Below, in pieces: positions 17,988-21,677 of a stretch of 64,000 bases of DNA. A program made the translations under genes and the position numbers. A model generated the notes under the pieces. That model had not been told where the DNA came from and did not search any database. It saw nothing but the letters and a program-made list of their open reading frames with translations. Every line of letters begins with the position of its first letter. Position 1 is the first letter of the stretch. Source of the stretch: Arthrobacter sp. OVS8. GTDB taxonomy: Bacteria > Actinomycetota > Actinomycetes > Actinomycetales > Micrococcaceae. The DNA lies in contig CP116670.1 of the NCBI GenBank assembly GCA_028370155.1, forward strand, positions 1,364,001 to 1,428,000, in the 5' to 3' direction.

Positions 17988-18497
17988 CTACTTGTTGCTG
18001 TCCTCGTCGACGTCGTCTTCGTCGATGAGGTCCAGGTCCTCTTCGTCGAAGTCGTCCTCGTCGAGCTCCACGTCCTGCGGAGTATCGCTCTTGTAGGGGT
18101 CCGCGTCGCCGGCGTGCTTTGCGCTGGCAGCGAGTGCGGCCACCTCGGCGTCGCGCTTCTTCGCGGCCCGGAGCAGTTCCTCCAGGTTCGAGGCGTTGAC
18201 CGGGATCTGGTCCGCCACGAACTCCAGGGTCGGGGTCAGCCGGACGGTGATGTTCCGGCCGACTTCCTGACGCAGCACGCCCTTGGCCTTCTCAAGCCCC
18301 TTGGCGGCCTCGGCCTGGACCAACTGGTCGCCGAACACCGTGTAGTAGACGGTGGCATGCTGAAGATCGTTGGTCACCCTTGCATCGGTAACAGTGACGC
18401 CCTCAAGCCGAGGATCCTTGACCCTCCGGCCCAGCGCCTCAGCAACAACAACCTTAATCCGCTGCGCCAACTTGGCAGCCCGTGCGGGATCAGCCAT
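17988..18497 (-). CDS. rbfA: 30S ribosome-binding factor A
   Basis: RbfA assists 16S rRNA 5'-end maturation. The 169-residue product shows RAAKLAQRIKVVVAEALGRR at the start, DPRLEGVTVTDARVTNDLQH and the KH-like LRQEVGRNITVRLTPTLEF. It has a long acidic tail (DVELDEDDFDEEDLDLIDED), typical of actinobacterial RbfA. The ATG at 18497 follows TTAGGAG. It lies downstream of infB, the standard nusA-infB-rbfA order, but separated by 287 bases. Confidence 0.95.
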   Translation of the reverse strand: MADPARAAKLAQRIKVVVAEALGRRVKDPRLEGVTVTDARVTNDLQHATVYYTVFGDQLVQAEAAKGLEKAKGVLRQEVGRNITVRLTPTLEFVADQIPVNASNLEELLRAAKKRDAEVAALAASAKHAGDADPYKSDTPQDVELDEDDFDEEDLDLIDEDDVDEDSNK

Positions 18498-18598
18498 TTC
18501 CACTCCTAAAAATTTGGATGTACGACGGCGCGTTAACGGCTCACGTACACACGTTTGGGTTTGTTGCCACGCGCCTAAAGCGAGTCTATGACGGACTC

Positions 18599-18758
18599 CC
18601 GTTGGATTCTTCCGGCGGCTCTTTGGAGCCGTGGAGGGCCCGGAGTGGCATCGGGCCTGCCGGAGCTGGGTGGCCGACGTCGTAAGACGTTGGCCACCCA
18701 GCGTAGGGCGGGGCCCCTCTACGGCGGAAAAGTGGGGGCCGCCGGAAGAATCCAACGG
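18599..18758. repeat. 160-bp nested palindrome between infB and rbfA
   Basis: A perfect 21-bp inverted repeat forms the ends (18599-18619 and 18738-18758; arm CCGTTGGATTCTTCCGGCGGC). Inside is an imperfect second pair (about 18628-18641 with 18709-18725). At the centre is a near-perfect 16-bp hairpin (18666-18701: CTGGGTGGCC ... GGCCACCCAG with an inner ACGTC/GACGT pair) closed by GTAA on the plus strand. It fills most of the infB-rbfA gap. It could be a structured RNA, a processing or attenuation element, or a small palindromic mobile element. Confidence 0.8.
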
Positions 18759-18784
18759 CCCCGCACCTCTAACGCTAGGACACT

Positions 18785-21677
18785 TTAGACGCGCGGCTTT
18801 TCGCGCATCTCGAAGGTCTCGATGATGTCACCTTCGGTGATGTCGTTGAACGAACCAAGACCAATACCACACTCGAAGTCCGTGCGGACCTCGGTGGCGT
18901 CGTCCTTGAAGCGCTTGAGCGTCTCAACGGTGAGGTTGTCACCGATGATCTTGCCGTCGCGGCTGATGCGGGCCTTGGCGTTGCGTCGGATAACACCCGA
19001 GCGCACGATCGAGCCTGCAATGTTGCCGAACTTGGAGGAACGGAACACTTCGCGGACCTCGGCGGTGCCAAGCTGGTGCTCTTCGTACTCCGGCTTAAGC
19101 ATGCCCTTGAGGGCTGCCTCAATGTCATCAATTGCTGCGTAGATGACGGAGTAGAAGCGCATGTCCACGCCTTCGCGGTCTGCCAGTTCGGCAACACGCT
19201 CGGCGGGCTTGACGTTGAAGCCGATGATTACGGCGCTGTCGACCGTCGCCAGGTTGACGTCGTTCTGCGTGATCGCACCGACACCGCGGTGGATAACGCG
19301 GAGCTGGACACCCTCGCCGACATCGATCTTGAGCAGCGCGTCTTCGAGGGCTTCCACGGCACCGGACACGTCACCCTTGAGGATGAGGTTGAGGGTGTCG
19401 ATCTTGCCATCGGCGACGGCCTGGTCGAAGTCTTCCAGGCTGATGCGCTTGCGGCGCTTGGCCAGGGCGGCGTTGCGGTCCGCAGCTTCACGCTTCTCGG
19501 CGATCTGGCGGGCGGTGCGCTCGTCAGCGGTCACGAAGAAGGTGTCGCCGGCACGCGGGACGTTGGACAGACCCAGTACCTGAACGGGGCGGGACGGACC
19601 CGCCTGGGTGAGGGCGCTGCCGTCGTCGTCGAACATCGCACGGACGCGGCCGTGGGCCGTGCCTGCCACGATGGTGTCGCCGACGTTCAGGGTGCCGGAC
19701 TGAACCAGGACGGTAGCAACCGCACCGCGGCCCTTGTCCAGGTTGGCTTCAATCGCGATACCGCGGGCGTCCTTGTTCGGGTTGGCGCGCATGTCCAGGG
19801 CTGCGTCTGCGGTGAGCAGAACGGCCTCGAGCAGCTCGTCGATGTGCAGGTTCTGGCGGGCAGAGACCTCCACGAACATGGTGTCGCCACCGTACTCTTC
19901 CGGGACCAGTCCGTACTCGGTCAGCTGGCCGCGGACCTTCTCCGGGTTGGCGCCTTCCTTGTCGATCTTGTTCACGGCCACGACGATCGGCACGTTGGCC
20001 GCCTGGGCGTGGTTAAGGGCTTCAATGGTCTGCGGCATTACGCCGTCGTCCGCTGCAACCACCAGGATGGCGATGTCGGTGACCTTCGCACCACGGGCAC
20101 GCATGGCGGTGAACGCCTCGTGGCCCGGAGTATCGATGAAGGTGATCTTGCGATCGGTACCCTCGTGAGCGTGTGTGACCTGGTATGCACCGATGTGCTG
20201 CGTGATGCCGCCGTGCTCGCCCGCCATAACGTCGGACTTGCGGATGGCATCGAGCAGGCGGGTCTTACCGTGGTCGACGTGACCCATGACGGTGACAACC
20301 GGAGGACGTGCCTCAAGTTCCTCGTCGCCTTCTGCTTCGAGTTCGGCTTCGAAGTCGATGTCGAAGCCGGACAGGAGCTCGCGCTCCTCATCCTCCGGGG
20401 ACACGACCTGGAGCTTGTAGCCAAGCTCCTCACCGAGCAGGGCGAAGGTCTCTTCATCCAGCGACTGCGTGGCCGTAGCCATTTCGCCGAGGTGGAAGAG
20501 CACGGTCACCAGTGCGGCGGGGTTCGCCTCGATCTTGTCGGCAAAGTCCGTGATGGACGAGCCACGGCGAAGCCGGACTACGGTGTTGCCGTCGCCGCGG
20601 GGTACGCTCACGCCACCCAGCGACGGAGCACTCATCTGCTCGAGTTCCTGACGCTTGGCACGCTTCGACTTGCGCTGCTTGCCACGGCCTGCGCCGCCCT
20701 TGCCGAAAGCACCCTGGGTGCCACCGCGACCGCGGCCACCCTTGCCGAAGCCGCCGCCGGCCGGAGCGCCGCCACCGGCGCCCGGAGCACCGGTACCTGG
20801 AGCGCCACCCGGACGGCCCGGACCACGTGCGCCGCCGCCGGGACGACCTGCACCAGCCGGTGCGGGACGTTCGGTGCGGTTAGGCATCATGCCGGGAGTC
20901 GGACGGTTTCCGCCGGCTCCTGCCGGACGGCCAGCGCCGGGAGCGCCTGCCGGACGGGGAGCGCCCGGGCGTGCACCCGGAGCGCCGCCGGTGCGGGGAG
21001 CACCCGGACGGGGACCGCCAGCGCCTGCTGCGGGACGGGGGCCGCCGGGGCGTTCGCCCTCGGTGCGGCTTCCGCCCGGACGCGGCATGCCCTGGGAAGG
21101 AGCGAACGGGTTGTTGCCCGGACGCGAGGGACGATCGTTGTCGCCGCCGCGGCCGCGGGCATGCCCTGGGACGTGGCGAACGGGTTGTTGCCGGGACGGG
21201 GACCGCCCGGGCGGGGTGCCGAGCCCTGGCGTGCCGGAGCAGCCGGGGTTTCAGCCTTGGGAGCCGGACGTGCGCCGGGCTTGATGCCCGTCGACGGCGC
21301 GGCCGGAGCCTGCGCAGCCGGAGCCTGGGCAGCGGGGGCTGCCGGTGCGGCGGGAGCCGCCGGGGCGGCACTGGGTGCCGGAGCAGCTGCTGCCGGAGCC
21401 GGAGCTTCAGTCTTGGTTTCCGCAACCTTCGGGGCGGCGCGGGCGCCGGACGGGTTGCCGAGGGGCTGGCGGGTGCCTTGGGGGCGGACGCGGGCGCTTC
21501 GGACTTCGAAGCCGCTGCTGCGTCGGGGTATGCGTTGCGGAGTTTCCTCACAACGGGGGCCTCAATGGTGGAAGAGGCGGAGCGAACGAATTCGCCCAGT
21601 TCCTGCAGTTTGGTTACTGCATCTTTGGAAGTAATACCGAGCTCTTTAGCAAGCTCATGTACGCGGACCTTGGCCAC
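18785..21677 (-). CDS. infB: Translation initiation factor IF-2
   Basis: IF-2 is the GTPase that places initiator tRNA on the ribosome. Reconstructed length is about 964 residues. The N-terminal module begins [19 protein letters not shown], followed by a long Ala/Pro/Gly/Arg-rich linker with repeats such as GNNPFA and SQGMP. The G domain shows [37 protein letters not shown] and [14 protein letters not shown], and the C2 domain lies at the end. Two one-base deletions in the linker (runs at 21462-21465 and 21157-21159) are the only breaks. The start has a CAGGAG-type ribosome site. Essential gene, so the breaks are almost certainly artefacts. Confidence 0.96.

Follow-up and report, generated by a model that had tools for sequence, protein, structure and literature searches.

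Introduction

Rickettsia palindromic elements (RPE) are 105–146 bp long, form a long stem-loop and are specific to Rickettsia, where they occur both in intergenic regions and fused in frame to protein genes, as described in the excerpted text of a review (PMC2229807). They carry terminal inverted repeats, which are listed as 12 bp long in the table of that review (PMC2229807). In the excerpts of two further papers, template switching is described as a process that creates and homogenises inverted repeats and inverts spacers (PMC8794818; PMC8604942).

The window analysed here is a 64,000-nucleotide stretch of contig CP116670.1 of Arthrobacter sp. OVS8, and the gap between infB and rbfA in this window contains a large palindrome. 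The best explanation is that the palindrome belongs to a family of small mobile DNA palindromes (~110 bp plus arms), restricted to the genus, with a constant core, locus-specific arms and arm pairing at the DNA level. We assign this reading a probability of roughly 0.6. The family is apparently undescribed so far; no description of it was found in the literature searched, a search that covers few subscription journals.

The palindrome between infB and rbfA

Both infB and rbfA lie on the minus strand, so the operon transcript is the reverse complement of the window. All parts of the element and their sequences are therefore given in the minus-strand sense, in which element sense and operon sense are the same. 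Upstream of the palindrome is the 3' portion of infB (IF-2; 18785–21088, minus strand), with its stop at 18785–18787, and downstream is rbfA (17988–18497, minus strand), with its start at 18497. The gap is 287 nt long. The infB gene is spread over two reading frames (20880–21677 and 18785–21088, both on the minus strand). Together with an assembly completeness of 79.7%, this points to indel errors, and such errors would account too for the broken frames in most copies of the element that lie within coding sequences of this genome.

The whole palindrome spans 18599–18758 (minus strand) in the inverted-repeat and fold analysis, and it sits between infB and rbfA, where an earlier note had placed it. 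That note had described a perfect outer repeat of 21 bp, an imperfect middle pair and a 16-bp central hairpin with a four-base loop, which together fold 160 bases into one long rod-like structure. The outer repeat is present and perfect over 21 bp (18599–18619 and 18738–18758), and the middle pair is imperfect, as described. The central hairpin and its four-base loop (18682–18685) are also present, but the hairpin is 17 bp long; its arms (18665–18681 and 18686–18702) are 94% complementary, with 16 Watson-Crick pairs and one G·T pair. The folding is borne out. The region 18580–18780 folds at -136.6 kcal/mol, compared with -91.0 (sd 4.9) in 200 dinucleotide shuffles, none of which is as low (z -9.4).

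The window copy has two layers, in which a newer element (CACTTTTCCGCCGTAGAGGGGCCCC ... GGGCCCTCCACGGCTCCAAAGA) lies between older 21-bp arms. The 5' half of the older layer (18735–18762) is the local hairpin GGGGCCGTTGGATTCTTCCGGCGGCCCC, the inner part of which is the 21-bp outer 5' arm, and the 3' half (18599–18619) is an inverted copy of this arm. The newer, inner element has the 5' arm CACTTTTCCGCCGTAGAGGGGCCCC (18710–18734), followed by the 5' strand of the core, GCCCTACG (18702–18709). Next is the variable hairpin P2 (18665–18702), which is 17 bp long and has the loop TTAC in element sense. The 3' strand of the core, CTCCGGCAGGCCCGATGCCACTCC (18642–18665), and the 3' arm GGGCCCTCCACGGCTCCAAAGA (18620–18641) come after it. 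All of these parts are on the minus strand.

Core, copies and distribution

The same-genome search proposed in the earlier note first gave partial copies, which share a common core and have different arms at each place. The search with a covariance model built from 17 copies finds 8 full copies in this genome, again with one core and different arms, and a weak partial match (E 0.25) that lies opposite the rho copy, on the other strand. The family core is largely unpaired and has the form GCCCCTnCG / CTnCGnnAGGCCCGAwGCCACTCC. Its two strands flank the variable hairpin and are enclosed by an outer stem. The segment GGCCCGAwGCCACTCC is common to all 8 own-genome copies, and the rho copy reads GAAGCC. 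At infB–rbfA, GCCCCTnCG is found in 26 of the 27 other sequences aligned, and all 25 short forms carry the 17-mer AGGCCCGATGCCACTCC unchanged, with stems and flanks that vary. This constancy is based on a set collected by similarity. A motif like TCRCCTTAGGCG (TCRCCTTAGG) recurs ~10–45 nt past the 3' arm at several loci and could be a candidate for the true 3' end of the element.

At E 0.01, 60 of 61 genus genomes contain at least one match, with a range of 0 to 8 per genome. In an order-wide sample, searched with stricter filters that are able to lose weak matches, 7 of 248 genomes have a match; these are all among the 8 genus genomes drawn, and none of the 240 others matches. The exact core pattern is found in at least 116 stretches of named genomes, and those among the matches listed are from Arthrobacter (84), Pseudarthrobacter (26), Paenarthrobacter (5) and Crystallibacter (1). 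The copy set of at least 128 consists of 120 copies from the named-genome stretches and the 8 own copies. The 120 were fetched by the exact core pattern, so their core identity is by selection. The named-genome matches listed may miss loci, and the ABC-permease locus is among the 128 solely through the own copy.

The exact core pattern has no match in viral contigs, and 121 nt of the window copy have no match among phages and plasmids in distant mode. Rfam gives five matches with E 0.03 or worse, all far under their gathering scores (best 21.6 bits against a gathering score of 80).

Loci, orientation and reading frames

Clustering of the flanking DNA separates seven loci among the at least 128 copies listed. 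Three are gaps between genes: infB–rbfA (35 copies listed), grpE–dnaJ (29) and rho–prfA (26). At the other four the element lies in frame, in the tail of a JetB-like (DUF4194) gene ahead of an AAA_29 gene (15 copies listed), in cysH/cysD (13), in the linker of an E2 acyltransferase gene (9) and in an ABC permease (1, the own copy). Orientation relative to the genes is not fixed, and both orientations are seen within CysD and within the grpE–dnaJ gap. In L118, L126, L184 and L211, the grpE–dnaJ gap holds two elements in opposite orientation, ~110–120 nt apart. L003 has one more long hairpin (AGCAACGCGGGGTCACTTA...TAAGTGACCCCGCGTTGC) in its rho–prfA gap, located past the element on the downstream side of the rho copy.

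In CysD, all 9 non-own copies listed are in frame near the same N-terminus (6 versus 3 by orientation). In CysH, both copies listed are in frame. In the JetB-like tail, 9 of the 14 non-own copies listed are clearly in frame to the downstream start (2 versus 7 by orientation), the other 5 being those that are not matched by the motif of the script; the own copy is frame-broken. In well-assembled relatives, the E2 copies are in frame through the lipoyl-domain linker. Among 30 E2 loci, the script finds the short element in frame in 4, and L269 is also in frame and was missed by its downstream motif. One further locus (L258) runs out at the locus end, the own copy (L253) is frame-broken, 2 have long forms in frame, 4 have the 5' half alone and 17 are without an element.

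The own ABC permease reading frame reads through its element copy. Six of the 15 permease loci fetched are empty, and such empty sites are found in close relatives. The other nine are the own copy, 6 short forms (among them L286, which carries two changes in the core), one long form and one half form. At the one site compared, own against empty with 93% flank identity, there is no clean target duplication.

In this genome, four of the five coding-locus copies lack one C from a run and are frame-broken, and the permease copy is not. The broken frames go with the 79.7% completeness of assembly G000. A reading of the copies within coding sequences as frameshift or bypass sites, taken from the own-genome frames, was dropped, as good assemblies are in frame and the broken frames of G000 include that of infB. 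The presence of any open frame is uninformative as a test in GC-rich DNA.

In the E2 linker (L259, L260, L263–L265) and at the ABC permease N-terminus (L295), there is another in-frame repeat near GGTTGAGCCTGTCGAAACC, which encodes VEPVET or alike and occupies the same tolerant protein regions in species without the element. A second structured module, CTTCCCA-rnGC-TCGCAAGCTC-GCny-GGGnCCCTC, has a short stem that varies in step. This module is found alone in relatives and also as a third arm inside long forms (L237–L241, L250; long L018, L030, L043, L274, L281, L287).

Arms, layers and exchange

The infB–rbfA survey covers 37 genus genomes, the own genome and G001–G036. Of these, 27 carry an intact core, 3 a long form that has one additional hairpin arm, and 2 a half or deleted form. 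In one (G019) the locus is broken off at the end of its contig, and in 4 the gap measures 76 nt and holds a simple hairpin and no element. The 28-nt hairpin of these four genomes (L225–L228) corresponds to the 5' arm of most infB–rbfA elements; by eye, L226 is identical to the common relative form of this arm in 20 of 28 letters. The 5' arm thus resembles local DNA that was already in place, and the 3' arm an inverted copy of it.

Nested layers are read by eye in L016, L019, L033 and L035, with other layer combinations in L019, L033 and L035. At rho–prfA and in cysD, half-remnants of earlier elements, also read by eye, lie beside full ones.

Types of arm and hairpin were placed on a tree of 28 genomes built from 1480 columns of infB and rbfA. 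On this tree, which is partly resolved (11 of 25 inner branches starred, 9 open), arm type (three types, labelled by eye) changes at least 9 times, compared with a minimum of 2, in a count without shuffle control. The P2 type, labelled and counted in the same way, changes 9 times in two classes (minimum 1) or 16 times in six (minimum 5). The P2 sequence CTGGGTGGCCAACGTCTTACGACGTCGGCCACCCAG is identical in L016, L017, L020, L021 and L025; L027 and L036 have it almost unchanged, and the close neighbours of these differ. With the many type changes and the scattered CTGGGTGGCCAACGTCTTACGACGTCGGCCACCCAG, it is most likely that the element or parts of it are replaced or exchanged faster than the flanks.

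Base pairing in the stems

The check for covariance in relatives, also proposed in the earlier note, gives abundant paired changes. They occur in 23 of 30 pairs, as many as in none of 500 shuffles, in a test on the same 17 rows that built the covariance model. In RNA, stems change by way of G·U pairs. For the outer stem P1, the 123 copies parsed of the 128 listed (5 are unparsed) contain 2385 Watson-Crick, 24 G·U, 48 A·C and 69 other combinations. In P2, 78 of the copies listed contain 1190, 26, 41 and 46, respectively, a count that leaves out 45 out-of-register copies, 38 of them at coding loci, which are all of the coding-locus P2 hairpins. There is no bias towards G·U. Summed over P1 and P2, 50 G·U stand against 89 A·C (binomial p 0.001, with cells that are not independent). 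When distinct sequences alone are counted, the numbers are 23 G·U and 46 A·C in P1 (pairs beyond the third) and 24 and 36 in P2. Pairs 1–9 of P2 have no G·U in 78 copies despite sequence variation, with 4 A·C and 3 other mismatches. The RNase P RNA of 30 genus genomes, used as a control with pairs from an RNAalifold consensus, has 2952 Watson-Crick, 266 G·U, 16 A·C and 13 other combinations, and 78 G·U against 16 A·C in minority cells.

The scarcity of G·U relative to RNase P, the free orientation and the in-frame copies together argue that pairing is kept at the DNA level. On these sequence patterns, arm pairing looks to be maintained by template switching or hairpin recognition and not by RNA selection. 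The Watson-Crick homogenised arms expected of a template-switch hairpin are present. A structure-reading enzyme would give the same pairing pattern as template switching, and the A·C excess over G·U would be consistent with weak selection for an RNA read from the other strand. Strong covariation in stems is commonly regarded as a sign of a functional RNA, yet it can exist without the G·U tolerance of RNA. The ratio of G·U to A·C, set beside that of an RNase P control, tells the two apart.

Discussion

The palindrome could be a cis-acting structured RNA of the infB–rbfA operon (an RNase III or RNase E site, an attenuator or a stability hairpin) that tunes rbfA against infB. This would agree with the very stable fold, the strong paired changes and the kept position, with an intact core in 27 of 37 genus genomes and 3 long forms; grpE–dnaJ and rho–prfA likewise lie between neighbouring housekeeping genes. 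It is nevertheless unlikely, given stems that do not tolerate G·U (50 against 89 A·C, compared with 266 against 16 in RNase P), both orientations in one gene (CysD) and in one gap (grpE–dnaJ), and in-frame copies in unrelated genes. In addition, 4 of the 37 genomes have the 76-nt gap without the element, 2 more keep part of it, and no known Rfam family matches. The structured RNA, RNase III site or attenuator of the earlier note finds no support as what maintains the structure, and a putative side effect of the palindrome on the infB–rbfA transcript is possible. The third option of that note, a MITE-like palindromic insertion with 21-bp ends, comes nearest, in that copies are found elsewhere in the genome and in relatives; its 21-bp ends are not conserved termini, as the arms vary by locus and are here remnants of an older layer.

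A classical miniature inverted-repeat transposon or REP/BIME moved by a known transposase would also be short, palindromic, intergenic or in frame, present in several copies and accompanied by close empty sites. We consider it improbable, as the arms, which would be the terminal repeats, are unshared between loci around a constant interior, whereas such elements are built the other way round, and as the one site examined has no clean target duplication. Across 35 genomes, which include 23 of the genus, the search for an IS200/REP-type Y1 (RAYT) transposase has no hit, and it rings in 5 of 14 controls. Least probable of the readings weighed here is a host-domesticated DNA structure, in which a cruciform, or a hairpin bound by protein, would serve the chromosome or gene regulation at few fixed loci. 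The few loci, the long retention, the DNA-level pairing and the identity of AGGCCCGATGCCACTCC in 25 of 25 infB–rbfA short forms with changing stems and flanks are consistent with it. Loci that are empty in some genomes and hold a half or full form in others count against it, as do insertion inside coding-sequence linkers, the lack of an orientation rule and the range of 0 to 8 matches per genome.

The genus-restricted family of mobile palindromic DNA elements is the preferred reading. Its core consists of short unpaired segments around a variable hairpin, and its outer arms of locus-specific inverted repeats. The elements lie at a handful of favoured loci, also inside older copies of themselves, which produces layered palindromes like that of the window. 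Species would exchange them piece by piece, presumably by horizontal exchange. The arms would most likely arise, and be kept complementary, by replication template switching, in which one arm serves as the template for the other. An enzyme that reads the folded single strand, and for which the core would be the recognition site, may act as well or instead. For the host, the element would be mostly a tolerated passenger, either between neighbouring genes or translated in flexible protein regions, with a probably selfish spread. Few loci across a whole genus is little for a mobile element and counts against mobility, as do the Y1 search without a hit in 35 genomes and the lack of a clean target duplication at the permease site, and the core kept intact at infB–rbfA, together with the long forms, could point to a host function. 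More tentatively, the element may be a mobile palindrome of a new kind, recognised by its folded single-strand shape and internal core, with arms built anew at each site from flanking DNA copied back, inserting into itself and travelling between species in pieces. With so many species and so few loci, template switching as the origin of the arms is open to a direct test.

Comparison with known systems

Integron attC sites combine constant short boxes with a variable folded stem and are recognised as a structure. The Arthrobacter element is likewise made of constant short segments and a variable folded stem. It differs in that no gene cassettes were noticed; no integron integrase is over the cut-off in 31 genomes, yet none of 14 controls is over it either, and generic tyrosine recombinases are below the cut-off in all 31. 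Template-switch (quasipalindrome) hairpins share the homogenised arms and inverted spacers in the excerpts of PMC8604942 and PMC8794818. A mutational process alone, however, puts no shared core at seven unrelated loci.

REP/BIME elements with RAYT are also palindromic, dispersed and partly inside genes, as described in the excerpted text of PMC3733652. REPs are described there as high-copy, whereas the Arthrobacter element has at most 8 matches per genome, and the Y1 search has no hit in its 35 genomes. The coding palindromes of Nematomorpha mitochondria are perfect inverted repeats inside translated genes (excerpts of PMC6649704). Those excerpts mention no core common to the copies, whereas the Arthrobacter core recurs at all loci.

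Wolbachia coding palindromes, which figure in a reference title, are grouped with RPE as a near system. Like RPE as described in PMC2229807, the Arthrobacter element is found both between genes and in frame inside unrelated protein genes. Unlike RPE, which have terminal inverted repeats, it has locus-specific arms and a constant interior, lies at seven loci among the matches listed and is found in an Actinobacterium. On this comparison, the best reading is that the element is related to RPE in life style and, by its ends, is not a member of them. It seems to be the Actinobacterial equivalent of the palindromes inserted in frame in Rickettsia genes, with the design reversed, in which the interior is constant and the arms are free.
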